The notes under the pieces are model-generated. The model saw only the letters and a program-made list of their open reading frames with translations. It was not told the origin of the DNA and ran no database searches. From an uncultured delta proteobacterium (GTDB lineage: Bacteria; Myxococcota_A; Polyangia; Polyangiales; Polyangiaceae), in NCBI GenBank assembly GCA_903906315.1, contig CAIVJW010000048.1, forward strand, positions 1-64,000: 64,000 nt of DNA. Direction: 5' to 3'. Positions within the stretch are counted from its first letter, which is position 1, and each line of letters starts with the position of its first letter. Shown piece after piece: positions 40,457 to 56,351 of the stretch. Made by a program: the position numbers and the translations under genes.

Positions 40457-43174
40457 TCACACCGAGTCGCGGCGCTTGAGCATCACCATCACCGTCACGA
40501 TGGCGGCCAGCGTCATGCCGGAGAGCACGAGCAGCGAAACGGCCGGCGTCGGATACGTCGAGAATCCGAGCCCGCCAGCCCCTTCGGTGGTGTTGCGCAG
40601 CTCCTCCACCGCGCAGTCGAAGCGACCACCGACGATGCCTTTGCCGGTCGCCACGCACGCCTTGATCCGCCACGACGCCGCGAGCTCCACGCGCTCGGCG
40701 GCCAGGAGCCCCTCGAACGACCACCGCGAGGGGACGACGGCCATGACGTACTCGAGCCACGGCTTGTTCGTCATCGGCACCATGCGGCCACCGAGCACCA
40801 CCTGCGGGATGAGCGCGATCGGGGTGAGCGCCATCGCCGCCTCCGAGGAGACGACCACCGACGACAGCAACAGGCCGATCGAGGCCGCGCACATCGCGGT
40901 CAGCACCATGAACGCGAGCATCACGAAGTACGCCCGCGCGGTCGACTCCCCGAGCCCGAGCGTCGTGAACACGATCGTGAGCAGCACCGTGCACTGCACC
41001 AGACACAGCAGCGAGAGCAGGGTGAACTTGCTCATCACGTAGTTGAATATCGACAGGTTCACCATCCGCTCGCGCCGGTAGATCGCCTGCTCGGCCACGA
41101 TCTCGCGGGCGGCGTTGCTGGTGCCGAACCACAGCGAGGCGATCGCCAGAAAGAAGATCGCCCCGCCGAAGTCGGCCACGCGGGTGAATCTCGACAGGTC
41201 CCCCACGCAGGCGGGCGCGATCTGGGCGCCCTTCTTGAGGAGCGTGCTCTCGACGCCCTGGAGGAAGTTCTGGCACCAGAGGTTCGGCATCTTCGCCGGG
41301 TTCGAGAACACCAGCGCGAGCAGCGCTCCGATGATGGGCGCCTGCGCGAGCAGAATGGCGGTGCCGGCTCGGTCGCGTCGCTTCACGATCGCGTACCGCT
41401 GGAGGAGCAGCCAGAACTGGCGCAGCAGCGGCACCTTCGCGCGCGTGGGGGCGCGGTTCTCCGTCGGCGCGCCGGGCTGCCGCGCGCCCGAGTACATCTT
41501 CTTGTAGGTCGCGTTTTCGGGGCGGTAGTACTCGTCGCGCCACTGCTTGGCGGACGCGAGCCGCGCGCCCGCCTTGTCCGGGAACTGGCCGCTCGCCGCG
41601 GCCTCCTCCTCGCGCTTCTTGAGGAGGTCGAACATGTCCCGCGGGTTGTCGATGCCGCCGCCCTTGTGGGCGACGTACCGGCCGAAGAACTCGTAGCTCT
41701 CCTTGCCCGTAGGCCCGTAGTACACCGGCACCCCACCGAAGCCCATGATCAGGGCCAGGTTGAACTTCTCGTACTCCTCGCGCGCCGGCTGGTGGATGGT
41801 GACGATGATTGTCTTGCCGTACTTCTTCGCGAGGCCGGAGAGCAGATCGATGAGCGCCACGGTGTCGTCGGCCGCGAGCCCGCTCGTCGGCTCGTCGAGG
41901 AACATCAGCGCCGGATCGGTGACGAGCTCGAGGGCGATGTTCACGCGCTTGCGCTGGCCGCCCGACAGCACCTTGCGCTCCGGCCGGCCGATCTCGAGGT
42001 TCTTCACCTGCTCGAGGCCGAGGTCCTTGATCACGGCCTCGACGCGCCGGTCGATCTCCGCGTCGCTGTAGTCGGGCGGGAGGCGGAACTGGGCCGAGTA
42101 CTTGATCGCCTCGAACACCGTGAGCTCCGGGTGGACGATGTCGTCCTGAGGCACGTAGCCGATGCTCCCTCGCAGCGCGTCGTAGATGGCGTAGAGGTTC
42201 TCACCGTTGACGCGCACCTCGCCCGAGCTCGGGCGCAAATAGCCATTGAGCACGGTGAGGAGCGTCGTCTTGCCCGCCCCCGAAGGGCCCATCAGCGCGA
42301 TGAGGTCGCCCGGGTTCGCCTTGAACGTGACGTGGTCGAGGAGGACCTTCTTCGCGGCCTTGTTCTCGCGGTCCTGGACGGCGAGGAAGAGATCCAGCGC
42401 CTCGATCTCCATGAGATTGCCCGACCAGTCGGCGCGGTCCGAGTCGACCCACGCGCGCACGGTGGACCCCTCGAGGCCCAGGAAGACCGCGTAGGGCCCG
42501 ATGAAGACCTTGTCGCCGGGCGTGATCTTGACGGGCACGTTCGGGGCGATGCGCATCCCGCCGATGTGCGTCCCGTTGGTGCTGCCGAGGTCGGTCACGG
42601 CGAGCATGCCGTCGGGCGTCGGCGCGACGGTGGCGTGCCGACTCGACACCTGCGGATACGGCATCACGATGTCCGCCTCCGGCTGACGGCCAATCGTGGC
42701 CTGCCGCCCGGCGCCGCCGAGCGCCTTCTCGCCGAGCATCGTGCGCACGCGGCCCGCGGCGGCTGGCGGGGAGACGAGCTCGGGAGCCTCCTGCAGCGAG
42801 GGCACGGCCATCGTCCGCGCGACGCGCCTCGAGGGAGCGCGAGAGTCCGGCAAGCTCGACGCGACCGGCGACACGCCGCCGGCGAGGCTCGGCGCGGCGC
42901 CGGCGGCCGACGAGTAGCCCGCAGCGGCCGAGGGCGGCACGACCGCCGAGGGCGACGCGGCGAGCGCATGCGCGGGCAGGCCCGCCGCCCGCGCCGCGAC
43001 GATCGCTTGCAGAAACGGAGGCACCTCGGTCACGGGCACCCACAGCTGCGTCCCGACCGCGCAGACCGCGCTGTCGGGGCCGATCTGAGCGAGCGAGATC
43101 CCTTGAATCATCGCCTGGGACGTGAAGGGACCGGTTGCGCCGCCGGAGCCGGCCCTCAGATACCACTCGCTCAT
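40457..43174 (-). CDS. ABCG-type transporter with N-terminal GYF_2 and FHA domains
   Basis: A 905-residue protein; ATG 43174 begins a GYF_2-like domain (EWYLRAGSGGATGPFTSQAM, about 1-55). After a linker, an FHA domain (about 165-240) has IGRQPEADIV, SSRHA and STNGTHIGG, so it should bind phosphothreonine peptides. The ATPase then shows Walker A GPSGAGKTT, the signature LSGGQRKRVN, Walker B ALMFLDEPT and an H-loop IVTIHQPA, in ABCG style. The C-terminal third has about six membrane segments, making it a half-transporter. The FHA domain suggests control by Ser/Thr kinases, which are abundant here. Substrate unknown. An upstream region of 200 bp is shared with a divergent small membrane protein. 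Confidence 0.92.
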   Translation of the reverse strand: MSEWYLRAGSGGATGPFTSQAMIQGISLAQIGPDSAVCAVGTQLWVPVTEVPPFLQAIVAARAAGLPAHALAASPSAVVPPSAAAGYSSAAGAAPSLAGGVSPVASSLPDSRAPSRRVARTMAVPSLQEAPELVSPPAAAGRVRTMLGEKALGGAGRQATIGRQPEADIVMPYPQVSSRHATVAPTPDGMLAVTDLGSTNGTHIGGMRIAPNVPVKITPGDKVFIGPYAVFLGLEGSTVRAWVDSDRADWSGNLMEIEALDLFLAVQDRENKAAKKVLLDHVTFKANPGDLIALMGPSGAGKTTLLTVLNGYLRPSSGEVRVNGENLYAIYDALRGSIGYVPQDDIVHPELTVFEAIKYSAQFRLPPDYSDAEIDRRVEAVIKDLGLEQVKNLEIGRPERKVLSGGQRKRVNIALELVTDPALMFLDEPTSGLAADDTVALIDLLSGLAKKYGKTIIVTIHQPAREEYEKFNLALIMGFGGVPVYYGPTGKESYEFFGRYVAHKGGGIDNPRDMFDLLKKREEEAAASGQFPDKAGARLASAKQWRDEYYRPENATYKKMYSGARQPGAPTENRAPTRAKVPLLRQFWLLLQRYAIVKRRDRAGTAILLAQAPIIGALLALVFSNPAKMPNLWCQNFLQGVESTLLKKGAQIAPACVGDLSRFTRVADFGGAIFFLAIASLWFGTSNAAREIVAEQAIYRRERMVNLSIFNYVMSKFTLLSLLCLVQCTVLLTIVFTTLGLGESTARAYFVMLAFMVLTAMCAASIGLLLSSVVVSSEAAMALTPIALIPQVVLGGRMVPMTNKPWLEYVMAVVPSRWSFEGLLAAERVELAASWRIKACVATGKGIVGGRFDCAVEELRNTTEGAGGLGFSTYPTPAVSLLVLSGMTLAAIVTVMVMLKRRDSV

Positions 43175-43377
43175 GGTCCCGGAGGCTACAGCAGATGCGG
43201 ACGCGCCGTCGGCTGCGTGGCGCCACGGCGAGGAGCTTCGCGTGTGGAGTCCGTCACGGCGTGCGGCGAGGCCGAAGAGAGCGCGCCGGACCCGGCGGAA
43301 TGTTGCGTCCACACGGCCATTGCGTCGCCCACGACCGCGGCCGGGAACAAGCCGCGTCCGGCGGCGTCTGCGCCGCA

Positions 43378-43731
43378 ATGCGTGACGAACTCTGCGACGG
43401 GCCGGCAGACGACACCCCCTGGATCGCCGACGCCGCCTGCGTGGATCCCCTCGAGGTGCCCGATCGCGAGCCGCTCGAGTGCGCAGACGCGCGCCGGGCG
43501 CTGATCTGGGGCGTGGTCGGCGTCGTGTGCCTCGGCTTCGTGATCGGCCCGGTCGCGCTCGCGATCGGACATCGCGCGCGCCTCGCGATCGCCGACCGGC
43601 CGGAGCTCCGCGGAGCCGGCGCCGCCCGCGCGGCGATCGCCCTCGGGAAGATCGGCTTCGCCCTCCACTTGACGCTCGCGGCGACGGTGATCCCGTGGCT
43701 GCTCTTCATGCTGCCGCTCCTCGGCGGCTGA
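43378..43731 (+). CDS. Small two-span membrane protein
   Basis: A 117-residue protein from ATG 43378. The N-terminal ~40 residues are acidic and contain three cysteines. Two membrane segments are visible (ALIWGVVGVVCLGFVIGPVALAIG and LHLTLAATVIPWLLFMLPLL) with a basic/Ala loop between, resembling DUF4190-like small proteins. Divergent from the FHA-ABC transporter gene. Function unknown. Confidence 0.65.
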   Translation: MRDELCDGPADDTPWIADAACVDPLEVPDREPLECADARRALIWGVVGVVCLGFVIGPVALAIGHRARLAIADRPELRGAGAARAAIALGKIGFALHLTLAATVIPWLLFMLPLLGG

Positions 43732-43880
43732 CGCGACCGCGGCGCTCCGCCGAGATCCGGACCCGAGGGTCAGCGAATCGCCGTCGCCAAGACGACCATG
43801 CGCTCGTCGGTCGCCTGGAGGCCGCAGACCGAGCCCGCACCGCGAGCCTGGCCTCGGAGCCTCTCCATCGGCGCCGACAC

Positions 43881-43908
43881 TTGGGCGCCGCATGTGCGCG
43901 CGCATACT
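43881..43908 (+). promoter_or_regulatory. Candidate sigma-70 promoter before the PilB-like gene
   Basis: TTGGGC (43881-43886) and CATACT (43903-43908) are separated by 16 bp and lie just upstream of the ATG at 43929. An AT-richer patch in this GC-rich context supports it, but both hexamers are imperfect and it would give a very short leader. Confidence 0.3.
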
Positions 43909-43928
43909 GTGCTAGCGTACGCGCCGCC

Positions 43929-45005
43929 ATGCTGCCTGGAAGGAAGTTCGAGAAGGGCTCCGCGACCGCCACCCTTGGGCTCGTCGACGGGAAGACCAAA
44001 GGAGGGCGCATGGCGGGCTTCTCTCCGCAGTCCGCCGACCTCGTCATCGACGTCGGGGGGCTCGGCCAGGCGACGGTCCACGTGATCTTTCCCGCCGAGA
44101 ACGTGGCCTATGTCGGCTTTCACCGACAGCCAGGCGTCCCGGTCGCGCGGCGCTCCGGCAGGCACGAGCTGAAGGTCCACGTCGCCGGTGGGCGGCAGTT
44201 CGCGGTCGAGGTCTATCCGGAGGCGCCGAGGGATGCACTCGGCTTCTACGGCGTGGCGCTGGAGAGCGACAGTCCCTATTCCGAGGTCTTCTTCTACGCC
44301 CACGGCGTCAATGCGCGGGAGCGCGCCGAGCCGCTCGGGGAGATGCTCCTGTCGAGGGGAGCCGTCACCCCCGGAGCGCTGTCGAGCGGGATCGACGCCC
44401 AGGTCGCGAGCCGTTCGGCGCCGATCGGGCAGATCCTCGTCGAGCAGCACGCCGTCTCTGCCGAGGCGGTAGAGGAGGCCGCCCACCTGCAGAAGCGCAA
44501 GAACCTGCGCCTCGGCGAGGTGCTCGTCGAAGCCGGGCTGGCGAGCACGGCCGACATCGACAAGGCGCTGGCCGAGCAGAAGAAGCGAGCCGGGAAGAAG
44601 CTCGGCGAGGTGCTCGTCGACCTCGGCGTCATCACGGAGGTGGACCTGTCGCTGACGCTGGCCGAGAAGCTCGGCATCCCGTTCGCCAACCTCGACGAGT
44701 ACCCGATCGATCCCGAGGCGGCCGGGGCCGTGCCGCGCGAGCTCATCGAGAAGTACCGCGTCCTGCCGCTGCGCGGAGACGGCCGCACCTTCACGATCGC
44801 GATCGGCGACCCGCTCGCGACCGAGGTGATCGACGTGCTCATGGACGACGAGCTCAAGCGGCTGGTGCAGCACAAGGCGCCCGTCGACGAGATCCGTCGG
44901 AGGGCGATGGCTGGCGGCATGACGACGCTCCTCCAGGACGGCGTCGAGAAGGCCCTCGCGGGCCGGACCGAGCTGCGTCAGGTGCTGTCGGTCTGCTCGA
45001 AGTGA
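43929..45005 (+). CDS. PilB/GspE-like protein lacking the ATPase core
   Basis: A 358-residue protein. Residues ~30-125 form a beta-rich N-terminal domain, possibly PilZ-like. Four helical repeats follow around residues 136, 166, 195 and 225, each of the form [LI]-G-[EQ]-[MI V]-L-[LV]; the last opens into a MshEN/GspE_N-type domain (EKLGIPFANLDEYPI ... RVLPLRGDGRTFTIAIGDP). At about residue 297 it jumps directly to what is normally the extreme C-terminus of PilB/GspE: MDDELKRL, DEIRRRA, GGMTTLLQDGVEKALAG. Walker A, Asp box and Walker B regions (roughly 300 residues) are absent, with the frame kept. MshEN domains of this group can bind c-di-GMP, so it might act as a regulator rather than a motor. 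It converges on the diguanylate cyclase gene. Confidence 0.82.
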   Translation: MLPGRKFEKGSATATLGLVDGKTKGGRMAGFSPQSADLVIDVGGLGQATVHVIFPAENVAYVGFHRQPGVPVARRSGRHELKVHVAGGRQFAVEVYPEAPRDALGFYGVALESDSPYSEVFFYAHGVNARERAEPLGEMLLSRGAVTPGALSSGIDAQVASRSAPIGQILVEQHAVSAEAVEEAAHLQKRKNLRLGEVLVEAGLASTADIDKALAEQKKRAGKKLGEVLVDLGVITEVDLSLTLAEKLGIPFANLDEYPIDPEAAGAVPRELIEKYRVLPLRGDGRTFTIAIGDPLATEVIDVLMDDELKRLVQHKAPVDEIRRRAMAGGMTTLLQDGVEKALAGRTELRQVLSVCSK

Positions 45006-45068: not shown

Positions 45069-46505
45069 TCAGGCCTCGGCGGCCACCGCCTCGCTCGCGC
45101 TGACGCACGAGGCCGGCTCTCCCTCGGCCCAGACGCGGTTGCGCCCCGACGTCTTCGCCCGGTACATCGCCCGGTCCGCCCGATCGACGAACGAGTCCAG
45201 CACCTCGCGGCACTGGAGCGTCGCGACACCGAGGGAGGCCGAGATCGGGATGGGCTCGCCCGCTTCGTCCTCGATGTGCTCGACGGCGATGGCCGCTCGG
45301 AGGCGCTCGGCGATCTCCTTCGCCTGAGCCGCGCAGGTCTGCGGCAGCAGCAGGACGAACTCCTCCCCTCCCCAGCGCGCGCAGAGATCCGCCGGCCGCA
45401 GGCTGCCCTGGACGAGCCTGCCGACCGCGTGGAGCACGCGATCTCCCGAGGCGTGGCCGCGCTGGTCATTGACCTGCTTGAAATGGTCGAGGTCGAACAG
45501 CACGAGAGACAGCGGCATCACGCAGTGGTCCGCCCGCGCGACCTCGCGCGTCGCCCCCTCGATGAACGCCCGACGGTTGAACATGCCGGTCAGCGCGTCG
45601 ACCGTCGCCTGTCGCCTCGACTCCTCGACGAGCGTCGACATGCGGACGGCGCCGCCGAGCTCGCGCGCGAAGACCTCGAGTAGCGAGGCGATCTCCTTCT
45701 CGGTCCCGGTGACCGGCGCGATGGCCACCGTCCCCACGCGCGTCTCGCCGAAGGAGATCGCCCGCACGAGCGGGGGCGGACCGTCGGTGCCGCCGACGGC
45801 GTCGTCGTCCTCGATGGAGATCGGCGCGAGCGCAGCCGCGGAAGGGCCGAGATCGAGGGCGGCCCGCGCCTCTCGTTCGGCGACCTCGCGCCCGCCCGGG
45901 CTCGCGTGGAGGCCGAAGCGCAGCGGCGAGAGGGTCTGGACCGTCAGCCATCGGTACGTCGCCACCTCGGACGCGAACTGCGCGAACCGGTCGAACAGGC
46001 GCTCGAACGACTCGCACACGGCGAGGTTGCGCACCTCGGCCGCGATGACCGAGTCGAAGAGCGCCGCGTCGAGGTGGGCCGCGATGCGGTCCCGGACGTC
46101 GCTGCCGTCGTCGGGGAGCACGGTGAAGAACTCGGCGTCGCCGCGGCTCACGACGGCCCGCGCGAGCGCGCGCACCAGATCGCCCATGCGCCCTTTCACC
46201 ACGTAGGCGATCGCCCCGGCGCGCTCCGCCCAGAAGCGATGCCGCCTCCCCTCCGCGCCGCGCAGGACGACGGGGACGTCCGACGTCGCGGGCTCGGCGC
46301 TGAGCAACCGACAGAGCTGCACGCCGGAAATGCTCGGCATCCAGAGGTCGGCGACGACCGCGGCGGGCGGATCCGTCAGGGCGAGGCGCGCCCCCTCCGC
46401 ACCATCGCTCGCCACCGTGACCTCGAACCCTTGCATGCCAAGCCGTGAGGCGAGAGCCTCGCGACCGATTGCGTCGGGATCAACCAGGAGGATTCGCCGG
46501 CCCAC
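45069..46505 (-). CDS. Response regulator diguanylate cyclase (REC - GAF-like - GGEEF)
   Basis: A 478-residue protein from GTG 46505. The receiver (1-125) has Asp10 and phosphoacceptor Asp53 in VVADLWMP; the conserved lysine is in VVKGR. A middle section (about 130-300) looks GAF-like. The GGDEF domain has LTGMFNRRAF, LFDLDHFKQVND, the active loop RWGGEEF with GGEEF at 379-383, and an inhibitory-site RPAD at 370-373, five residues ahead, so it should make c-di-GMP and be feedback-inhibited. It lies 31 bp after the hydrogenase maturation protease in the same direction, so it is probably the last gene of the hydrogenase/Che operon and a natural output of its phosphorelay. Confidence 0.93.
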   Translation of the reverse strand: MGRRILLVDPDAIGREALASRLGMQGFEVTVASDGAEGARLALTDPPAAVVADLWMPSISGVQLCRLLSAEPATSDVPVVLRGAEGRRHRFWAERAGAIAYVVKGRMGDLVRALARAVVSRGDAEFFTVLPDDGSDVRDRIAAHLDAALFDSVIAAEVRNLAVCESFERLFDRFAQFASEVATYRWLTVQTLSPLRFGLHASPGGREVAEREARAALDLGPSAAALAPISIEDDDAVGGTDGPPPLVRAISFGETRVGTVAIAPVTGTEKEIASLLEVFARELGGAVRMSTLVEESRRQATVDALTGMFNRRAFIEGATREVARADHCVMPLSLVLFDLDHFKQVNDQRGHASGDRVLHAVGRLVQGSLRPADLCARWGGEEFVLLLPQTCAAQAKEIAERLRAAIAVEHIEDEAGEPIPISASLGVATLQCREVLDSFVDRADRAMYRAKTSGRNRVWAEGEPASCVSASEAVAAEA

Positions 46506-46536
46506 GACGGTACCATCGGCGATCGATTCGAGGACT

Positions 46537-47016
46537 TTAGCCGAGAGTGTTCGATGGGGCCCCGAGCTCGGCGCGCAGCAGGATCACCGTCGCGTCCACC
46601 GCCGCCTGGAGCGCGGGCGAGAGTGACATCGAGAAGGTGCCGCTCGGCCGCTCGATTTCCGCCCCGAGCACCTCGATCGCGGGCATCGGTCGCCCGTCGA
46701 ACAGGATCGGCAGGACGTGGAAGAGGTGGCTCAAGTCCATGGCGTGCGCCGAGAACGTCTCGACCGGCGGCGCCAGCTCGTCGAGCCGCAGGCGATGCAG
46801 GCGCCCCGGCGAGCCCCGAAGCTCCAGGGCGTCGACCACCACGGCACGGTCGCAGTCGTCGAACGCCGCGAGCGCGCCGAGGCCGAGCGTGCTGCCGTCG
46901 AAGATACGCACGTGGGCAGGCCAGAGGTGCGCGAGGAGCCGCCGGTGGACGTGCACGCCGAAGCCGTCGTCCCCCTGGACGAGGCTCCCGAAGCAGACGA
47001 CGTGGACGACTAGCAC
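46537..47016 (-). CDS. hupD: [NiFe]-hydrogenase maturation protease
   Basis: A 159-residue endopeptidase of the HyaD/HybD/HycI family, which removes the C-terminal peptide of the large subunit after nickel insertion. GTG 47016 is chosen since it overlaps the large-subunit stop by seven bases and puts the nickel-sensing motif VCFGSLVQGDDGFG at the N-terminus, as the family requires; the acidic pair DD is the expected nickel ligand region. The central DDCDRAVVVDALEL carries the second conserved acidic site, and FSAHAMDLSHL the conserved histidine. Its presence fits the 13-residue C-terminal extension on the large subunit. Confidence 0.9.
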   Translation of the reverse strand: MLVVHVVCFGSLVQGDDGFGVHVHRRLLAHLWPAHVRIFDGSTLGLGALAAFDDCDRAVVVDALELRGSPGRLHRLRLDELAPPVETFSAHAMDLSHLFHVLPILFDGRPMPAIEVLGAEIERPSGTFSMSLSPALQAAVDATVILLRAELGAPSNTLG

Positions 47017-48542
47017 GCGCCGAAGCGCGCGCGCTGTCCGGTGCGGACGAAGTGGACCGTGCACACCAGGCAGGCGTCGTGCGACCGGATGACGTGCCCG
47101 AGCTCGACCGGGTCGCTCTCGTCGGGAATGGGCGTGCCGATCAACGATTGCTCCCAGTGCCCGCGCACGCCGGCGGAGTCCCGAGGAGAAGCGTTCCAGC
47201 CCGTCGGCGAGATGACCTGATAGCGGGCGATCTTCCCCTCGCGGAGCTGCAGCCAGTGCCCCAGCGCGCCGCGCGCCGCGTGGACGAGGCCCGCACCGTC
47301 GCCTTCGTCGACGTCCCGGGGAGCGAGGTAGAAGGGGTCTGCGAGATCGCGCTCGAGGTCGAGGAGGGTGCGCCGGAGCAGCGACAGCGACAGCGCCGGG
47401 CGGTGGAGGCGCGCGAGCTGGCGCGTGAAGACGTCGACCCCCTCGGCGCGATAGAGCGACTCGATCAGTGGATCTCCCGCCATGAAGAGCTCCGGAAAGC
47501 AGCCGACCTCGACGACGTTGTCACGGTAGCGCGGCGCCTTCGCCCACGAGTACTTGTCGCCCTCCGGCTCGTAGCTCGGCACCGTCTCCCCCTTCCACGG
47601 GTGGGCCGGAGCGTGGTCTCGATACCACGAGTGCTTCACGTGCTCCGAGACGTCGGCCTGGGAGAACGGCTCGATGCGCGACGTGGCGGCGTCGTGGAAG
47701 CCACCGGCGCGCAGGCAGTGCCGCTCCGTGAACGGCGGCTGCCAGCGCGCGGGGTCGAAATACGCCCCGTAGCTGAGCATGCTGCCGCTGCCGCGACCGA
47801 GGCGCTGCAGGCCGACGTCGCGCGCCACGCGGACGAAGAGCCCGAGCGCGCCGTCGCGGTGCTCGGGCCGCTCGTCGATCCAGCGGTCGAGATCCTCGAG
47901 CGACCGAACCTCGAGCCAGCGATCGATCGAACAGCCGAGGACCGTGCGCTCGTACCACCGCGCGTAGCCGTCGAGGATCGAGAGCGCCTTGACCAGGCTG
48001 CGGCGGCTCTGCGCCCCGACCACGCCGCCGGGCACCATGTGCGAGGAGTGCGGCCACTGGCCGGCGAAGATCGCCACGACCTCGAGGAGCCTCTTCGTCT
48101 CGACGATCGTCTCGCGATAGACGCGCCCCGTGAACGGCGCGAAGGCCTCGTGGAGCTTGTCGCGCTCCGGATGGCCTGCGTAGCGAGGGCCGCACAGGTC
48201 GACCGTGAACATGAGGAACGCATGGCGCGCGTCCGACTGGATCTCCTCGGTCAGCAGGCAGGCGTTGCGCACCCGCGTGCCGTTCTGCGCGATCGCGCAC
48301 CCCATGGCGGTCTCCAGCGCGGTGACCGCCGCATACAGGTGCGCGGTGCCGCAGATCCCGCAGATCCGCGGGGTGATCACGAGCGCGTCCTTCTTGGCGC
48401 GGCCGAGCAGCAGCTGCTCGAAGCCGCGATACGTGGTCCCGACCGTCCAGGCGTCGGTGACGACGCCGTCCTCGATCTCCAGCTTGACGAGGAGATCCCC
48501 CTCCACGCGATTCAGTTCGACCGAAAGGGTCCGCTTGGCCAT
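47010..48542 (-). CDS. hupL: [NiFe]-hydrogenase large subunit, group 2-like
   Basis: A 510-residue catalytic subunit that carries the NiFe centre for H2 splitting. ATG 48542 has GAGG upstream and starts at the conserved LNRVEGDL. N-terminal ligands are in RICGICGTAH (Cys61, Cys64, His68). C-terminal ligands are in DACLVCTVH (Cys491, Cys494, His497), followed by 13 residues that the protease would cleave after His497. The usual DPC is DAC here. The N-terminus resembles cytosolic group 2 enzymes (cyanobacterial HupL, mycobacterial Huc) rather than membrane-bound group 1. Encoded between the small subunit (22 bp upstream) and hupD (overlap). Its operon with a kinase suggests H2 sensing or a signalling-linked uptake role. 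Confidence 0.93.
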   Translation of the reverse strand: MAKRTLSVELNRVEGDLLVKLEIEDGVVTDAWTVGTTYRGFEQLLLGRAKKDALVITPRICGICGTAHLYAAVTALETAMGCAIAQNGTRVRNACLLTEEIQSDARHAFLMFTVDLCGPRYAGHPERDKLHEAFAPFTGRVYRETIVETKRLLEVVAIFAGQWPHSSHMVPGGVVGAQSRRSLVKALSILDGYARWYERTVLGCSIDRWLEVRSLEDLDRWIDERPEHRDGALGLFVRVARDVGLQRLGRGSGSMLSYGAYFDPARWQPPFTERHCLRAGGFHDAATSRIEPFSQADVSEHVKHSWYRDHAPAHPWKGETVPSYEPEGDKYSWAKAPRYRDNVVEVGCFPELFMAGDPLIESLYRAEGVDVFTRQLARLHRPALSLSLLRRTLLDLERDLADPFYLAPRDVDEGDGAGLVHAARGALGHWLQLREGKIARYQVISPTGWNASPRDSAGVRGHWEQSLIGTPIPDESDPVELGHVIRSHDACLVCTVHFVRTGQRARFGAC

Positions 48543-48564
48543 CTTGCTCTCGTCCTCGACCCGC

Positions 48565-49509
48565 TCAGAGCTTGGATTTGCGCTCGAGGAGCCGCGCCGG
48601 CGCCGCGGACCGAGCGAGGCCCTTGTAGGCCATGTACGAGGCCCGATTGACCCCCAGCGGCAGGACCACCGGCACCTCACCGATCTTGTTGGTCTTGAAC
48701 AGGTCGTGCGCTCTGGGGAAAGCCGGGGACGTGCACGCGAAGCAGGGCACCCCGACGCGCGGCTTGCTGCTCTGGTTGTTCCACAAGATGCTGTTGCAGG
48801 TCGCCATCGTCGTCGGGCCTTCGCACCCGAGATTGAAGAACAGGCAACCGGGTGCTCCGAAGTCGCGCTCCTCGACGTCGAACTCGTGGTACTCATTTCG
48901 CGTGCAGCCCTGGTGCACCAGCGTCGAGTAGAACTCGGTCGGTCGGTGAAGGTGATCGAGCTCGAGGCGCATGCCGGAAAGAGCCCACAGCAGCGTCTGC
49001 ACCATGGTGTTCGGGTGCGCGGGGCAGCCGGCCAGGTTGATCACCGGGAGCCCAGCACGGGACCGGAACTCCCGCTCGAGGAGCCCGCCGTCCGGCTCGT
49101 CGCGGAGGAACTGCAGGCCGACGGCGTCGGTGGGGTTCGGCCCCGAGGCCGGGATGCCCCCGAACGCCGCGCAGGTGCCCATCGCGAGGACGAACTGCGC
49201 CTTGGCGGCGAGGCCGGCGACGAGGTCCTTCTTGGGCCGTCCTCCGAAGGAGTCGAACATCCCCGTCCCGTCCGGCCCGAGCAGGATCGACCCCTCGACG
49301 CACAGCACGGTGAGATCGATCTCGTCGGCCAGGATTCGGTCGATCGTCCGGCCGAGGTCGGCCGCCGACGTCGGCGAGAGCGACGGGTGCCACAGGAGCT
49401 CGACGCCGTGGCCCTCGAGGAGCTCCAGCAGGTCGGGTGACTCCGCGCAGAGCAGCGACATGGAGTCTCCGCTGCACGCGGCCGTTTGCATCCACAGCAG
49501 GGTCGGCAC
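48565..49509 (-). CDS. hupS: [NiFe]-hydrogenase small subunit, group 2-like
   Basis: A 314-residue electron-transfer subunit. GTG 49509 has GAGGAG upstream. There is no Tat signal, so it is cytosolic as in group 2. The N-terminal proximal-cluster motif reads ACSGDSMSLL: Cys12 is present but the usual second cysteine is Asp15, as also happens in cyanobacterial HupS (ACSGNT). Other iron-sulfur ligands are in MGTCAAFGG, LAGCPAHPN, LVHQGCTRN, NLGCEGPT, MATCNSIL and VPCFACTSPAF, enough for three clusters. There is no C-terminal membrane helix. It directly follows the Rieske-like sensor kinase gene (39 bp), so electrons from H2 could reach that kinase. Confidence 0.93.
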   Translation of the reverse strand: MPTLLWMQTAACSGDSMSLLCAESPDLLELLEGHGVELLWHPSLSPTSAADLGRTIDRILADEIDLTVLCVEGSILLGPDGTGMFDSFGGRPKKDLVAGLAAKAQFVLAMGTCAAFGGIPASGPNPTDAVGLQFLRDEPDGGLLEREFRSRAGLPVINLAGCPAHPNTMVQTLLWALSGMRLELDHLHRPTEFYSTLVHQGCTRNEYHEFDVEERDFGAPGCLFFNLGCEGPTTMATCNSILWNNQSSKPRVGVPCFACTSPAFPRAHDLFKTNKIGEVPVVLPLGVNRASYMAYKGLARSAAPARLLERKSKL

Positions 49510-49548
49510 GCTCGTTCTCCTCGCTCGCTCGTGAAGTCAGGCGCGGCG

Positions 49549-52500
49549 CTAGTCGTGATAGGCGCGCAGCGTGATGGTCATTTCGGTGCCACGACCGACC
49601 TCGGTGTGGATGTCGAGGCGAGCACCGATCTTCGCCAGGTTGGTCGCCACGACGTCCATCCCGATCCCGCGCCCGGAGATGTCGGAGACCACGGCGGCCG
49701 TCGACAGGTGAGGCAGCAGGACGAGCCGCACGGTCTCCTCGCGGGAGAGCGCGGCGACCTCCTCCGCGGTGCGCAGGCCGAGCTCGACCACGCGCCGCCC
49801 CACCTGGTCGGGGTCGATGCCTCGACCGTCGTCGTGGATCTGCACGGTCGTGACGCCGTCGTCGCACGCGCAGTCCAGGCCGATGATCCCGATCTCGCTC
49901 TTGCCGGCGGTGACCCGCACGCCGGGAGGCTCGATGCCGTGGTCGAGCGCGTTGCGCAGCATGTGGACCAGCGCTTCCTGCAGGACGTAGATCTCGTCGC
50001 GCGGCACGGCGATGCTGCTATCGCCGGAGATGCGGAGCTCGACGCGCTTGCCGAGCCTCGTCGCGACGTCTTGCACGGTGTCGTGGTACTTGAACAGCGC
50101 AGGCAGCAGCGGCGCGTCGAGCAGCCTGTCGAGCCGCTGCTGCACGAGCAGGAGCGCGTCGTCGGTGCGTTGCTCCCGGTACGATCCGAGCGTCCGTTTG
50201 AGCGTGTTGATGTTGTAGGCCATCACCTCCACCGTCTGGACGCGGTCGCAGAGCAGCTGGAAGTTGCCCGCGAGCAGCTCGCGGACCGAGGTCACGAGCC
50301 GGCCGACCGCCACCTTCTTGAGGTACTGACACTCGGGGGCGTCGTCCGCCCGGAAGAGCTCTCCGCCGTCGCCGAGCTGTCCGAACACGGCGTTCACTTC
50401 CGCGGGCGAGGTCCTGGCCCAGAGCTCGGAGAGCACGTCGCCGAGGTCCGCGACGTCGTGCGACGAGAGGAACATCCGCGCCGTCACGACCGCGCTCTCG
50501 TGGCCGAAGAGCCGCCCTATCGCGCGGAGGGTCGCGGTGGGCTCGGTGCCCGCGCGACGCTGCGCGCCGAGGAACGACACGAAGCAGCCGGCGCGCGCCT
50601 TGTTGCCGTCGAGGCTGCGCATCGCCCCCCCGCGGTCGCGATCGCCACGCCCGACCGCGGCGAGGATGTCCTTGCGCTCGCCGGCGCGGAGCACCGCGAA
50701 CGACTCCAGCACCGACACGAAGCCGAGGTGCCTCCACGCCTCGCGCAGCAGGGCGGCGTCCCCGGGGCCTTGCGCGTGCCCGAAGCGCGCGCCCCCGAGC
50801 CCGCTGAGGAGCGTCGCCACGTACTCCTCGCCGAGCGCGCTGGCCGACGAAATGGCGTTCTCGACGGCGCGATCGATCGCGAGTCGGTCCGCCCCCGCGT
50901 TCGCGGCCGTGATCGCGAAGAGCCCGAGGAACAGCGACACCCAGCCCGTGGCCGAGAGTGAGCAAGGGGACGTCGAGGAGACGTACGTCCGGGCGGCCAC
51001 CTCGACCAGCGCGAGGTGGTGCCGACGGAATGCCGCGATCGGACATTCCAGGTCTCCGCGGTCGGGCTCGAGCGAGCCGAGGGACGCCTCGACCTCACGA
51101 AGGGCCGTGTCGAGGGCCTGATTCGCAACTCCCCCTGCGGCGTCGCGCACCACGTCGAGCGCCGCGCGCAGCTCGGTCGCGGGCACGCACGCGCGGAGGC
51201 GCCGCGCGTGCTCGGGATCGAGGTCGGTCGGCGGCGTGCCGAGCGATCGGCCGAACCAGGCGCCGACCTTCGCGTCGAGCGCCGACATGCCCCCGTGCAG
51301 CCGGGCCAGGGTGCGGACCTCGAAGTCGTTGGGGATCCGGAGGATCTTCGACGCGAGCGAGCCATATTCCCCGACGACGCGCTGGATGTCGGCGATGCGC
51401 TCGGCGAGAGGCGCCCGCGAGGCGGCCGGATCGCCGTCCATGAGCGTCTTCGCCTCGTTCTCGGCCTCGTGGGTGGTCGTGCCGATGAGGCGCAGCCCGA
51501 GCGCGCGCGAGTTGCCCTTCAGCGTGTGCAGGTTGCGCATCACCACGACGGCCCGAGCGCCCTCGAGCGGGCCGCGGGCGAGCAGGGCGCGCGCGTCGGT
51601 CAGCAGCGTGCAGGCGCTCGCGAGGAAGACCCGCAGGTCCTCCGGTCGGTTGCGCACCAGCTCCTCGACGACCTGGATACGCCGCTGATTCGCCGCCTTC
51701 TCCTCCTCCATCTGCCGCTCCAGGAGCTCGATTCGCGTGACGTCGTCGACGACGATCATCATGCGGTCCATCAAGCCGGCCGCGTCGCGAAGCGGGCAGT
51801 AGCCGACCTTGAGGATGGCGACCTGCTCGCCGTCGGCGTCCACCGACGTGCGTCGGCAGAGGACCCGCGTCGGCAGGAGGTCGACCATGAGGTCCCACTG
51901 GAACTCCTCGGCGTCGAAGGTGGTCAGGAAGGCCATGTTGAGCAGCGAGAACGCCTCGCTCTCGCGCTCGACGTCCTTGAAGAGCACGTCGAAGACGCTC
52001 TGGCCGGCGATCTCCCGACCGAACACGGTGGCGGAGAAGCGCGACACCGGCTCGATGATCTCGCCGCTGGCCACCACGACGAAGACCGCCTGGCGCATGT
52101 TGTCGAGGAGGCCGGCGACCTTGTCGTACGCCACGCCGAGCGCGAGCTGGGCGGACTTGATCTCGCGGATGTCGGTGCCGACGACGACGAGCCCTTCCCT
52201 CTTGCCGGCGGCCCCGTAGAGCACGGACGTGCGCAGCAGGTGCGCCGCGATCTCGCCCGCCTTCGTTCGCAGCGACACGTCGAACTCGCCGTGCGGCTTC
52301 GCGGCGAGCGCGGAGTAGGCGCAGGTGCGCCCGGTGGCGAGGAGTGCGGCGAGATCCTCGGCGGCGAACAAGGCGTCGATCGGGTGACCGAGGACCTCCG
52401 CCGCCGAGTAGCCGAGGAGATCGTAGAGGCGCTGGTTTGCCTGCTTCACCCGACCCGACGTGTCGAGCACCACGAGGACCTCGGTCATCGTGTTCGTGAC

Positions 52501-53124
52501 GCGACCCACGAAGTCGCTCACCTCGGCGATCTGCGAGTTCGTCCGCTCGAGCAGCCGCCGCTTCTCGTCGACCTCGGCCACCATGGCGTCCATCTGCCGC
52601 AGCGTCTCGAGCGTCTGGTGCTCGCGGAGACGAGCGGCCTCGGTCAGGGCCCGGACCTCCTGCACGAGCGCCGTCGTCCGCTCCTCGGCCGGGTGCGCCC
52701 TGACCGAGAGGGCGAAGTCGGGCGCGAGCGGCTCGCGCTTCTCGGCGTCCCACAGCAGGTAGAGCGCTTCGCCGTCGGCCTCGACGAGGAACACCTTGAG
52801 GGCTCCGCCGCGGAGATCGTACTCGGTGCGGTGGAGCGGGCACTCGAGCACGTACGGACCGACGAAAACCGCCTCGGCGAGGCTGTCGTGCTCCTGCGGG
52901 CAGAACGCCGGAATGGCGATCACCTCGCCACCCTGCCGGAGCACCACGAGGGATCGCCCGCGCAGCGATCCGGGGAACCTGGCCTTGCCCGTCCAGCGTC
53001 GATCGCCCCGGACCTCGACCGGCCGGAGCTCCTCGATCGCGAGGCGCACCGGTCCGCCGCCGCGCGGGCCGCCTTCGGTAGCGGCACCGCCGAGCGTTCG
53101 CGCCGCTGCGGAGTCCGGGTTCAT
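49549..53124 (-). CDS. CheA-like histidine kinase with N-terminal Rieske-like and PAS domains
   Basis: A 1191-residue protein from ATG 53124. Residues ~25-135 look like a Rieske [2Fe-2S] fold: FCPQEHD (Cys75, His79; spacing C-x3-H rather than the classical C-x-H) and ECPLHRTEYDLRGG (Cys95, His98). A coiled coil (150-205) leads to two PAS domains (about 208-325 and 340-470), the first with the conserved LLGYSAAEVLGHP. An HPt-like segment contains NLHTLKGNSRALG with His533 as likely phosphate acceptor. A long helical middle (about 570-1000) is not recognised. The C-terminus is a CheA-type ATPase: MLRNALDHGIE, DDGRGID, GRGIGMDVV. There is no CheW-like domain. Located between cheX and hupS, it could sense hydrogenase-derived electrons through the iron-sulfur domain; that is inference. 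Confidence 0.85.
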   Translation of the reverse strand: MNPDSAAARTLGGAATEGGPRGGGPVRLAIEELRPVEVRGDRRWTGKARFPGSLRGRSLVVLRQGGEVIAIPAFCPQEHDSLAEAVFVGPYVLECPLHRTEYDLRGGALKVFLVEADGEALYLLWDAEKREPLAPDFALSVRAHPAEERTTALVQEVRALTEAARLREHQTLETLRQMDAMVAEVDEKRRLLERTNSQIAEVSDFVGRVTNTMTEVLVVLDTSGRVKQANQRLYDLLGYSAAEVLGHPIDALFAAEDLAALLATGRTCAYSALAAKPHGEFDVSLRTKAGEIAAHLLRTSVLYGAAGKREGLVVVGTDIREIKSAQLALGVAYDKVAGLLDNMRQAVFVVVASGEIIEPVSRFSATVFGREIAGQSVFDVLFKDVERESEAFSLLNMAFLTTFDAEEFQWDLMVDLLPTRVLCRRTSVDADGEQVAILKVGYCPLRDAAGLMDRMMIVVDDVTRIELLERQMEEEKAANQRRIQVVEELVRNRPEDLRVFLASACTLLTDARALLARGPLEGARAVVVMRNLHTLKGNSRALGLRLIGTTTHEAENEAKTLMDGDPAASRAPLAERIADIQRVVGEYGSLASKILRIPNDFEVRTLARLHGGMSALDAKVGAWFGRSLGTPPTDLDPEHARRLRACVPATELRAALDVVRDAAGGVANQALDTALREVEASLGSLEPDRGDLECPIAAFRRHHLALVEVAARTYVSSTSPCSLSATGWVSLFLGLFAITAANAGADRLAIDRAVENAISSASALGEEYVATLLSGLGGARFGHAQGPGDAALLREAWRHLGFVSVLESFAVLRAGERKDILAAVGRGDRDRGGAMRSLDGNKARAGCFVSFLGAQRRAGTEPTATLRAIGRLFGHESAVVTARMFLSSHDVADLGDVLSELWARTSPAEVNAVFGQLGDGGELFRADDAPECQYLKKVAVGRLVTSVRELLAGNFQLLCDRVQTVEVMAYNINTLKRTLGSYREQRTDDALLLVQQRLDRLLDAPLLPALFKYHDTVQDVATRLGKRVELRISGDSSIAVPRDEIYVLQEALVHMLRNALDHGIEPPGVRVTAGKSEIGIIGLDCACDDGVTTVQIHDDGRGIDPDQVGRRVVELGLRTAEEVAALSREETVRLVLLPHLSTAAVVSDISGRGIGMDVVATNLAKIGARLDIHTEVGRGTEMTITLRAYHD

Positions 53125-53134
53125 CTGAAGTACT

Positions 53135-53680
53135 CTAGAACAAAAGACACTCGCCCTGTTCAGCGGCGTCGTTCGACTCCGTCGATTCGAGTGGCGAGAG
53201 CTCGACCTCGGGCTCCGCCGTTGCGTCGAAATGGAGATCGAAGGTCGACTCCGCCGCACGGAACCGCAGGCGCGCAAACCCTTCGCGTGGGTCGACCCGA
53301 CCCCGCAGCTCGGTCCCCTGCATCGTCATGGGCGTGCACAGCTGAAGCACGATCCCGTGTCGAAGCAGGCGATTCTTGAGCTGACCCAGGATCTGGTTCG
53401 AGATCTCGCCCGCCCAATCGTGGAACGCCGCGAGCGGGTCGCCCGTGATCTTCCCGCGCATCGGGTGCGTTTGCTCGAGCAGCAGCTGCGGCAGCACGAG
53501 CGCGAGCGAGCCCGATAGCTTCGCACCGGAGAAGCCGATGAAGGCGATGACACCGGAGGCTGGAGGTTCGTTGGACGCGAGGGATCCCTCGCAGCGAGCC
53601 ACGACCCCACAATGGCTGAAGAACTCGGCGCAACAGGCCTCGAGCTCCCCGTGGACGACGCCCCAGCTCTCAGGTTTCAA
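53135..53680 (-). CDS. cheX: CheX-type CheY-phosphate phosphatase
   Basis: A 181-residue protein of the CheC/CheX/FliY fold. The phosphatase helix carries EISN in DWAGEISNQILGQLKNRL, giving Glu92 and Asn95, the E-x2-N pair that dephosphorylates CheY. The single such helix indicates CheX rather than CheC. The start is TTG 53680, because GGAGGG lies seven bases upstream and homology begins immediately; no ATG or GTG fits. It follows cheY by 49 bp and precedes the sensor kinase by 10 bp, so it probably sets the lifetime of the phosphorelay signal. Confidence 0.85.
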   Translation of the reverse strand: MKPESWGVVHGELEACCAEFFSHCGVVARCEGSLASNEPPASGVIAFIGFSGAKLSGSLALVLPQLLLEQTHPMRGKITGDPLAAFHDWAGEISNQILGQLKNRLLRHGIVLQLCTPMTMQGTELRGRVDPREGFARLRFRAAESTFDLHFDATAEPEVELSPLESTESNDAAEQGECLLF

Positions 53681-53693
53681 TGGGATTCCCTCC
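53678..53693 (-). promoter_or_regulatory. Ribosome binding site and TTG start of cheX
   Basis: On the minus strand GGAGGG is followed by seven bases and TTG. The strong Shine-Dalgarno sequence supports the unusual start codon, since the in-frame codons further upstream are not family-like. Confidence 0.65.
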
Positions 53694-53729
53694 GCCGGTC
53701 CGCCCCGACGTCCATGGAGATCGAGGCCG

Positions 53730-54098
53730 TCACGCCCCGGCGATCTTCCGGACTGCACCGATTAGCATGTCGGGCTTGAACGGCTTGACCATCCAGCCCT
53801 TGGCGCCGAGCGCCTTCGCCTTCGTGATGAGATCCACGGATCCCTCGGTCGTGAGCATGACGACGGGCGGCAGGGCGCGCCCGTTGCCCTTGAGCTTCTC
53901 GAGCATCTCGAGGCCGCTCATTCGAGGCATGTTCACGTCGCAAATCACCATGGCCACGTCGAGGTTGGCGTCGAGCTTGCGGATCCCGTCCTCGCCGTCG
54001 ACAGCCTCGATCACCGTGTACCCGGCCGGGCCGAGCGAGAAGGCGACCTGCGATCGAATGGTGCTGGAGTCGTCGACGACGAGAATCTTCTTGGCCAC
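53730..54098 (-). CDS. cheY: CheY-like single-domain response regulator
   Basis: A 122-residue receiver from GTG 54098, with GGAG six bases upstream. Asp9/Asp10, phosphoacceptor Asp54 in ICDVNMP, the Thr in MLTTEG and Lys105 in VKPFKP are all present. It has no output domain, so it must act on another protein. As first gene of the che/hydrogenase operon it is the expected phosphate acceptor for the CheA-like kinase two genes on, with CheX as phosphatase. The 228 bp to the divergent lipoprotein gene should contain the operon promoter. Confidence 0.92.
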   Translation of the reverse strand: MAKKILVVDDSSTIRSQVAFSLGPAGYTVIEAVDGEDGIRKLDANLDVAMVICDVNMPRMSGLEMLEKLKGNGRALPPVVMLTTEGSVDLITKAKALGAKGWMVKPFKPDMLIGAVRKIAGA

Positions 54099-54326
54099 GG
54101 GTGCTCCTCGCCCCTGTCGAAGCTCCGGCGACGGGCGGCTCCCGCGACGGCTATGGGACGGGGTCCATGGATCGGCCCCATCGGAGAATGCTTTAGGATC
54201 GCAGTCGGCGAATGTCGCGAGGCGCCCCCGCTCCGCTCGGCCCGCCGGCGCGCCGGGATTGCGCCCGCGTACGTGCCGAGATACCCGCTCACCTCGCGGG
54301 CGGAGCGCTCGCAGAGGAGCCTCTTC

Positions 54327-56351
54327 ATGAATCGCTCGCACTACCGCCTCTTCGCCCTCGCGGTGCTCGTCGCCGGCTGCGGCAGCGAGCCAGAGGGGCT
54401 CCCGGCCTCCTCCCCCTCCACGACCGGTGGTGCGCCCGCGCCGGTCGCGCGCTTCGCCGTGCCGGCAGACCTGGCGTCGCTCGATGGTTCGGGCTGGCTC
54501 GACCACCCGTGGCCGAGCGACCTCCGACGCGAGGCGGACGGCCGGGTTCGTCTCGCCGGCTTCCCGAAGGCGGACCTCCCCGGCGCCGTCTCCGCCTGGG
54601 TGAGCCAGGTTCGCGACGAGCTATCGGACTTTTCGCCCGTCGCAGCCGGGTTCCTCGCGTTCGAGGGAGCGATCGACCCCGGCCAGCTGCCGGACGCGGC
54701 GGCGTCGCTCGAGGCGTCGTCCGTTTTGCAGCTCGTCGACGTCGACGAACGCAGCCCCGACGTCGGCAAGCGCGTCCCCCTTCAGTGGGCGTGGCGCGAG
54801 CCCGTGGGCTACTACTTCGTCGCACCGAACACGCTCGCGTTCGCGCCGGCCCTCGGCGCGTCGATGAGGCGATCGGAGCGCTACGCCGTCGTCGTGACCC
54901 GCGAGCTCACCGGACCGGGCGGCGCCGCGGCGCCGAATGCCGATCTCGCCGAGCTGCTGGCCGGTCGTGGGCCGCTCGCGGCGAGCTGGTCCCCCGCGAT
55001 CGACGCGCTCGAGAAGGCCGGCGTCGCGCGCGCGCGCATCGCGCACCTCTCCGTGTTCACGGTCGGCGACCCGGTCGCCGAGACCGTGAAGCTCGCCGCG
55101 CACGCCCGCAAGCAGCCGCTCCCCAAGGTCGAGACCCTCACGCTCGCGAGCCTCGGAGAGGGCGGCTTCGACGAGTACACCGGGTTTTACCTGGGCGCTC
55201 CGGACTACCAGGTCGGCACCCCCCCGTACTCCTCCGAAGGCGGGCAGATCGCCCTGGACGACGCCGGGGATCCGATCGTTCAGCGCACGCTCCGACAGCG
55301 CTTCAAGCTGCTGGTGCCGAGCGCCGCGAAGTGCCCGCCCCCCGCGGACGGATACCCGATCATGCTCTATGCCCATGGCACCGGGGGTGACTGGACGACC
55401 CTGATCACGGCGGGCACCGGCGCAGCGCTGGCGGCCAGCTGCATCGCCTCCATGTCCGTCGACCAGCTCTTCCACGGCGTGCGCCCCGGCGCGCCGCCGG
55501 AGGACGACCCGAACGCCGAGGCGAAGGCCGGGGTCGCCTTCTTCAACGTGTCGAACGCCAACGCCCTCCGCAACAACAACACGCAGGCGGCTATCGACGA
55601 GGTCATGCGCGCGCGGCTCGTGCAGAGCGGCGGCCTCACGATCGACGCTGCCGCCTCGGCGAGCGGCGCGGCGATCGCGTTCGACCCGAAGCGGATCGGC
55701 TTCTACGGGCACTCGCAGGGCACCTTCAACGGCGCCGTGTTCCTCGCGCTCGACGAGAACCTCGCGCGCGGCGCCGTCCTCTCCGGCTCGTGCTCCTCGT
55801 TCGCCCACTGGACGATGCTCCGCGTGAACATCCAGCCGTCGGTGCCCCACCTGCTCGAGATCGTCCTCGGCGTCCCGGCTGATTTCCACGACGAGCTCGG
55901 TCCCCTGCACCCGGCCATGGCGCTGTTCCAGACGATCGCCGACCCGTCCGATCCCATCCACTACTACCCGCTGATCACGCGCGCGCCGCTCGAGGGCCAC
56001 GCGCCGAAGAGCGTGCTGATGACCGAGGGCATCGCGCCCGACGGCTCCGGCGACAACTACGTCCCGCCGCCGATCATCGAGGGCAACGCGATCGCCGGGG
56101 GCTTCCCGCTCATCGCCCCGGTGGTGCGCGACATCCCGCTCCTCACCCAGGTGTCGGGCATCCGCGTCGCGACGCCTCCGTTCGCCGGCAACCTCGCCGG
56201 CGGACAGGCGACCGGCGGCCTCGCGCAGTTCGTGCCCTCGGGCGGCGTCGACGGGCACTACGTCGCGCGGCAGGGCAAGGCCCTCGCGATGACGATGACG
56301 TACGCGGAGTCGCTCCTGTCGACGAGCGTGCCGACGATTCCGGCGCCCTGA
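54327..56351 (+). CDS. Lipoprotein alpha/beta hydrolase
   Basis: A 674-residue protein. ATG 54327 has GAGGAG eight bases upstream and begins a lipoprotein signal (LFALAVLVAGC, Cys18). The hydrolase part shows YPIMLYAHGTGGDW (oxyanion HG), nucleophile Ser463 in GHSQG and a late His in GVDGHYVA. Residues ~60-330 form a large N-terminal region typical of myxobacterial/Bdellovibrio surface hydrolases. The substrate is unknown. It is divergent from the cheY operon and lies 100 bp before the ArsM-like gene; the gap makes co-transcription with that cluster possible but not certain. Confidence 0.85.
   Translation: MNRSHYRLFALAVLVAGCGSEPEGLPASSPSTTGGAPAPVARFAVPADLASLDGSGWLDHPWPSDLRREADGRVRLAGFPKADLPGAVSAWVSQVRDELSDFSPVAAGFLAFEGAIDPGQLPDAAASLEASSVLQLVDVDERSPDVGKRVPLQWAWREPVGYYFVAPNTLAFAPALGASMRRSERYAVVVTRELTGPGGAAAPNADLAELLAGRGPLAASWSPAIDALEKAGVARARIAHLSVFTVGDPVAETVKLAAHARKQPLPKVETLTLASLGEGGFDEYTGFYLGAPDYQVGTPPYSSEGGQIALDDAGDPIVQRTLRQRFKLLVPSAAKCPPPADGYPIMLYAHGTGGDWTTLITAGTGAALAASCIASMSVDQLFHGVRPGAPPEDDPNAEAKAGVAFFNVSNANALRNNNTQAAIDEVMRARLVQSGGLTIDAAASASGAAIAFDPKRIGFYGHSQGTFNGAVFLALDENLARGAVLSGSCSSFAHWTMLRVNIQPSVPHLLEIVLGVPADFHDELGPLHPAMALFQTIADPSDPIHYYPLITRAPLEGHAPKSVLMTEGIAPDGSGDNYVPPPIIEGNAIAGGFPLIAPVVRDIPLLTQVSGIRVATPPFAGNLAGGQATGGLAQFVPSGGVDGHYVARQGKALAMTMTYAESLLSTSVPTIPAP

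Follow-up and report, generated by a model that had tools for sequence, protein, structure and literature searches.

A myxobacterial [NiFe] hydrogenase gene set with a CheA-like kinase and a diguanylate cyclase: a probable H2-responsive signalling module related to group 2c

In the window (the whole stretch of 64,000 nucleotides analysed here), the genes for a [NiFe] hydrogenase lie among genes for a CheA-like kinase, CheX, CheY and a diguanylate cyclase, which raises the question of whether this hydrogenase serves signalling or respiration, and of what the adjoining kinase would respond to. The comparisons described below point to signalling.

Organization and host of the gene set

Seven minus-strand ORFs were identified at 45069-54098 from the ORF calls and the sequence, and domains were assigned to their products by Pfam matches above the curated cut-offs:

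53730..54098, minus strand: cheY, stand-alone response regulator (Response_reg, 83.6 bits; canonical VVDD, ICDVNMP, LTTEG and MVKPF)
53135..53680, minus strand: cheX, CheX-type phosphatase (Pfam CheX, 36 bits; ExxN motif, EISN at 92)
49549..53124, minus strand: kinase, 1191 aa (Rieske-like domain, helix, PAS, second PAS-like region, Hpt and CheA-type ATPase; Pfam and NCBIfam)
48565..49509, minus strand: hupS, small subunit, cytosolic form (Oxidored_q6, 87 bits; NiFe_hyd_SSU_C, 80 bits)
47010..48542, minus strand: hupL, large subunit, 510 aa (NiFeSe_Hases, 252 bits; RICGIC and CLVCTVH)
46537..47016, minus strand: hupD, hydrogenase maturation protease (Pfam HycI, 49 bits; TIGR00072, 103 bits)
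45069..46505, minus strand: REC-GGDEF diguanylate cyclase (Response_reg, 45 bits; GGDEF, 145 bits; GGEEF at 379, I-site RPAD at 370)

The genes are separated by 49 bp (cheY-cheX), 10 bp (cheX-kinase), 39 bp (kinase-hupS), 22 bp (hupS-hupL) and 31 bp (hupD-cyclase), and hupL and hupD overlap by 7 bp; the initial annotation, which had described seven minus-strand genes with gaps of 10-49 bp or an overlap, was thus confirmed by the ORFs, the sequence and the Pfam matches. The start codon of cheX is TTG, preceded by GGAGG. Since both flanking genes point the other way, a hydrolase-like gene upstream of cheY being divergent (54153..56351, plus strand) and the gene beyond the cyclase convergent (43479..45005, plus strand), the seven-gene set is bounded. 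A scan of the set for sigma-70 promoters and terminators gave no signal above shuffled sequences. The source genome (8.79 Mb, 455 contigs) belongs to the same family as the relative G413, which bears out the proposed myxobacterial host. HypD is present in it, and besides HupSL it encodes two [NiFe] enzymes, both Vhu/Mvh-like (group 3 type) and neither an uptake enzyme.

Lineage of the hydrogenase and its linkage to signalling proteins

HupL carries both [NiFe] motifs (RICGIC and CLVC), and CLVCTVH is followed by a 13-residue C-terminal tail, FVRTGQRARFGAC. The proximal motif of HupS is ACSGD, and the remaining FeS ligands are all intact. Because HupS begins at the hydrogenase domain and has no signal sequence, a cytosolic location is likely. 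A tree of 117 large subunits was obtained by a quick search, with flagged long branches lying elsewhere in the tree and no HydDB-labelled 2c sequence included; in it, the window HupL was placed in a 33-row clade (support 99) nested in an 85-row signalling-linked clade (94), and the three 2a sequences and the two HoxC (2b) sequences formed, respectively, a separate clade and a branch of their own (support 100 each). HupL therefore falls outside the respiratory 2a clade; a place inside that clade, among operons lacking the kinase, had been named beforehand as incompatible with the signalling proposal. The proximal position of the small subunit is Asp or Glu in at least 82 of 83 relatives (the eight commonest motifs all end in D or E), Cys in two HoxB (2b) and Asn in three 2a enzymes. 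The C-terminal peptide and the protease gene are retained in nearly all relatives.

The L2 motif of the window is SHDACLVCTVH, and that of the relatives is mostly HDPCLVCTVH or FDPCLVCTVH. For group 2c the consensus is SFDxCLVCTVH, and a Thiomargarita enzyme assigned to this group has SHDACLVCTVH (PMC4853749); the window motif is identical to the latter and one letter off the former, within the group 2c form. In HydDB, [NiFe] group 2c bears the label 'diguanylate cyclase-linked (putative)', with its role given as undetermined and perhaps that of H2 sensing through c-di-GMP, and group 2b is listed as histidine kinase-linked (PMC5037454). The roles of the two groups had been exchanged in the initial annotation, and neither of the two features by which it distinguished this gene set from group 2c can be kept: a cyclase is already part of the group 2c description (PMC5037454), and the C-terminal peptide and protease are common among the relatives. 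The diguanylate cyclase/phosphodiesterase gene expected of a group 2c set is represented in the window by the REC-GGDEF gene. From the L2 form and the HydDB description, group 2c is probably the closest filing. The tree, the L2 motif and the retained tail put HupSL in the signalling-linked lineage and outside both 2a (Huc) and 2b (HoxBC).

Group 2b regulatory hydrogenases are thought to sense H2, and HoxBC/HupUV, with HoxJ/HupT, resembles the window set in being a cytosolic group 2 hydrogenase adjoining a PAS kinase. However, HoxC terminates at the His of CTVH, whereas the window has a C-terminal peptide and hupD; HupL lies outside the HoxC branch, HoxB has a proximal Cys, and HoxJ is another type of kinase, lacking the helix described below. 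The best-matching solved structure for both HupL and HupS is Huc (group 2a), which differs in its proximal Asn, in having no helix-bearing partner and in its separate clade. A respiratory 2a origin of HupSL was considered and rejected on the tree, the proximal ligand and the Huc-like loci, which have no helix.

To survey the gene neighbourhoods of relatives, a HupL profile was run against the genomes of 84,980 species, and 80 named loci were obtained, spanning Pseudomonadota, Thermodesulfobacteriota, Nitrospirota, Planctomycetota, Acidobacteriota, Chloroflexota, Myxococcota and others. By an automatic rule, a kinase or cyclase directly follows hupS-hupL-(hupD) in 71 of them. The nine loci failing the rule comprise short contigs or contig ends, L085 (kinase split over two frames), L105 (missed by the rule) and L087, in whose genome hupD, the helix and GGDEF were found on other contigs; none is a clear exception to the linkage. 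The direct outputs were classified as 65 kinases and nine cyclases, mostly PAS-HisKA kinases with some GGDEF(-EAL) proteins. On an Ideonella dechloratans plasmid, the deposited annotation lists a small subunit, a large subunit, a protease and a bifunctional diguanylate cyclase/phosphodiesterase. Since the order hupS-hupL-(hupD)-signalling gene is repeated in about 90 loci, chance adjacency was rejected. Recurrence of the full seven-gene order had been put forward as a check: the hydrogenase-signalling part of it recurs, and the version with CheA, CheX and CheY was found in the window alone. The window kinase is the sole output of the CheA kind, with CheX and CheY, among the loci surveyed, and a search for CheX in the 80 relatives' loci and in further loci of the same taxonomic order gave none. 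By this output the window differs from group 2c as described in HydDB, with which it shares a signalling-linked group 2 enzyme, the L2 form and a cyclase in the set. Relatives from the same order carry hybrid HisKA kinases, and the relative from the same family (L113/G413) sits in the other HupL clade; the window's copy was therefore probably transferred from a proteobacterial lineage or is an old sister to it.

Two further features of the relatives were observed. At eight loci (L081, L083, L084, L088, L090, L092, L100 and L138) the hupD protease is apparently fused to the N-terminus of a hybrid kinase; Pfam HycI was found in one of the eight when examined, and also in eight of 72 output N-termini. 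A maturation protease acts once per enzyme, yet here it would stay attached to the output kinase. In two Desulfobacterota, a second, group 1-like HupL lies upstream of the 2c locus (L111:2826-4517 and L139:3242-4930, plus strand) and has an in-frame TGA exactly at the second Cys of its L1 motif (RSCGV*TYTH), which makes L1, not L2, the candidate site of a selenocysteine. Both genes carry the same hairpin sequence after the TGA, and its stability is no greater than that of shuffled sequences.

Domains of the output kinase

The following domains were located in the kinase:

52747..53049, minus strand: Rieske-like domain, residues 26-126 (Pfam Rieske, 24 bits; family profile against PDB)
52549..52683, minus strand: shared helix, residues 148-192 (common to 72 of 72 outputs)
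52138..52497, minus strand: PAS domain, residues 210-329 (Pfam PAS_4/PAS_9; fold matches to PAS)
51418..51633, minus strand: Hpt domain, residues 498-569 (Pfam Hpt, 31 bits; HTLKG, phospho-acceptor His533)
49558..49977, minus strand: CheA-type ATPase, residues 1050-1189 (HATPase_c, 45 bits; NCBIfam CheA models)

When the N-termini of 72 outputs, the window included, were aligned, one conserved stretch of about 44 residues was found before the PAS or kinase domains in every one, whatever the output type, with a consensus of about 'ENxLLRxEVRVAREAAEITAxLVVEQF' or 'LRxEVxALRxANxxLExQ' and with Glu156 (window numbering) invariant. In the AlphaFold model, residues 145-211 of the window kinase form a single helix of high confidence between a beta domain and a PAS domain. 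Two helix subtypes track the two HupL clades without exception (27/27 and 45/45). A profile of 44 positions (A3) gave about one strong match per genome in 20 genomes; the exceptions were the genomes of L087, with two GGDEF copies, and of L091 (Chloroflexota), with a second kinase. This second kinase, a hybrid one (L160:6129-8207, minus strand), has no hydrogenase in the 15 kb covered and is a possible trans partner. Among 284 Myxococcota genomes (25 candidates being scored in the larger ones), the helix matched exactly the four with a 2c-like HupL (E < 1e-140); the chance of the same four coinciding is 3.8e-9, and three of the four genomes lie outside the profile. In further loci of the window's order, the helix was present in seven of seven 2c-like loci (the HisKA part being in reach in six) and in neither of two Huc-like loci with proximal Asn; it was looked for and not found in the HoxJ kinases of group 2b. 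The simplest reading is that the helix is probably a docking element for HupSL. As far as Pfam, NCBIfam and a literature search lacking most subscription journals extend, it is unrecorded so far. Being near-unique per genome, the helix offers a means of finding output partners and of telling sensors from uptake enzymes, and the Asp/Glu proximal ligand provides a second diagnostic for such hydrogenases. The idea that the hydrogenase is used for signalling, as a dedicated module, is well supported by these neighbourhoods and the shared helix.

A Rieske-like domain was found in 12 outputs, either ahead of the helix or encoded by a small gene of its own, all within the 33-row HupL clade: in kinases of Rhodocyclaceae, Azonexaceae and Zoogloea, in GGDEF-EAL proteins of Neptuniibacter, at a SAR324 locus and in the window. 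This distribution on the HupL tree is accounted for by three to four changes. The fold search with the kinase N-terminal model was uninformative on this part, and a sequence profile of the family was used against PDB, which matched Rieske ferredoxins. These ferredoxins are electron carriers in oxygenases. In the window domain, C75, C95 and H98 are retained and H77 is replaced by Gln, with His79 two residues on; because CPQEH stands in place of CPH, the first His ligand of the CxH...CxxH pattern is missing. This ligand is kept in the other 11 of the 12 loci, and the Gln77 codon (CAG, 52894-52896) may reflect one miscalled base in the draft assembly. A search of the literature for a Rieske protein with a hydrogenase and a cyclase or regulatory kinase found no relevant system; a Rieske-like relay, perhaps the role of this domain, would be new in this survey. 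Two Huc-like 2a loci from the window's order encode, a few kb downstream of hupL, a separate protein (L184:9259-10353 and L185:6297-7361, plus strand) that matches the Rieske profile weakly, at 15 and 12 bits.

In the output part, the motifs HTLKG (533), RNALDHG (1057), DDGRG (1098) and GRGIG (1151) were identified, and the best matches of the ATPase are CheA. The description of the kinase as CheA-like is borne out by these matches, by the Hpt domain with HTLKG and by the NCBIfam CheA models. At E 0.001, neither CheW nor H-kinase_dim was detected in the window kinase, whereas CheA relatives show both. When full-length relatives were sought among 331 Myxococcota, the matches were essentially confined to the ATPase region; residues 481-1010 gave weak partial matches with no clear relatives, and structure prediction of the C-terminal 711 residues without an alignment gave a pLDDT of 40 and no usable model. 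The canonical CheY and the CheX with an ExxN motif would fit a CheA-type relay. The set thus resembles the CheA-CheY-CheX relay of chemotaxis in its Hpt domain with HTLKG, its CheA-type ATPase and the side-by-side CheY and CheX, but differs from it in the missing CheW and H-kinase_dim domains and in an input made up of Rieske-like domain, helix and PAS.

Proposed signal path and competing explanations

The gene set is likely to encode a signalling module of the group 2c type that responds to H2 in the cytosol. After maturation by HupD and the Hyp proteins of the genome, HupSL would react with H2 while docked on the kinase through helix 148-192. The PAS domain next to the helix would receive the H2-dependent redox or conformational state of HupSL, the Rieske-like domain perhaps relaying electrons, and this would govern autophosphorylation at His533 of the Hpt domain, carried out by the CheA-type ATPase. 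The phosphate would be transferred to CheY, which CheX would reset by dephosphorylation, and possibly also to the REC-GGEEF cyclase, altering c-di-GMP. In this proposal the hydrogenase lineage, the hydrogenase-output linkage, the helix, the domain make-up and the intact catalytic motifs are established by comparison of sequences; the H2 ligand, helix docking, electron flow, phosphotransfer, the sign of the response, the cellular target and the c-di-GMP output are what we infer. Counting against the module are Gln77, the Gly in the cyclase receiver (see below), residues 481-1010, which have no clear relatives, the lack of H-kinase_dim and the single case of CheA/CheX/CheY.

The general idea of hydrogenase-linked H2 sensing through c-di-GMP is already published as a prediction for group 2c, and no experiment on any member was found in the literature searched. 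As far as that literature goes, the near-universal linkage to signalling, kinases as the main output, the Asp/Glu diagnostic and the CheA/CheX/CheY version are new. The survey makes the group 2c prediction testable, as the helix marks the output proteins of these hydrogenases, and the chemotaxis-type output of the window would put CheY and c-di-GMP of a myxobacterium under the influence of a trace gas. A wider interpretation, to which we give slightly less than an even chance, is that hydrogenase subunits and docking helix, often Rieske-fed, make up a single interchangeable sensor cassette throughout the lineage, which has been combined with HisKA kinases, with GGDEF/EAL enzymes and, in the window alone so far, with CheA/CheX/CheY, with H2 electrons entering the output protein as the direct signal.

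A c-di-GMP enzyme had been claimed for the set and is indeed encoded: the cyclase gives 145 bits to GGDEF, and its active-site GGEEF, matching GG[DE]EF, and its I-site RPAD are intact. Its receiver, aligned by eye, is degenerate, with Gly at the CheY Thr87 switch position, which makes control of the cyclase by phosphorylation less certain. Together with the kinases and receivers, without a cyclase, in which most relatives end, this lends some weight to the explanation that the hydrogenase-kinase-CheY part works as proposed and the cyclase is a passenger, c-di-GMP being no output of H2. We regard that as the lesser possibility, however: the cyclase gene is co-directional with hupD and begins 31 bp after it, nine relatives have a GGDEF protein as their direct output, and REC-GGDEF proteins are also encoded near loci L091, L123 and L136.

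Rieske and PAS are redox-type input domains, and the fold search with the kinase N-terminal model was filled by PAS matches, including the FAD-PAS of NifL and the energy sensor Aer. The module might accordingly respond to O2 or to the redox state instead of H2, in which case the actual sensor would be the kinase's Rieske-like/PAS part and HupSL would set a baseline; this is unlikely, because most relatives have no Rieske domain whereas HupSL and the helix are invariably present, and because the [NiFe]-site motifs of HupL are conserved. That HupSL is an ordinary uptake hydrogenase for respiration, whose signalling genes merely regulate it or adjoin it by chance, is very improbable, for although Huc, an uptake enzyme, is the nearest relative with a solved structure and the intact active-site motifs and most FeS ligands would permit turnover, the set has no redox partner gene, signalling outputs occupy the same place across many phyla and bear a dedicated helix absent from Huc-like loci, and HupL stands apart from 2a in the tree.

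Two neighbours of the H2-responsive module proposed here were also observed. The protein encoded at 43479-45005 (plus strand), whose gene is convergent with the cyclase gene and ends at 45005, has an MshEN domain (46 bits). Domains of this type bind c-di-GMP in other proteins, and the protein is a possible candidate for a c-di-GMP effector. At 40457-43378 (minus strand), near the gene set, an FHA-GYF-ABC transporter fusion protein with an unusual mix of domains is encoded.
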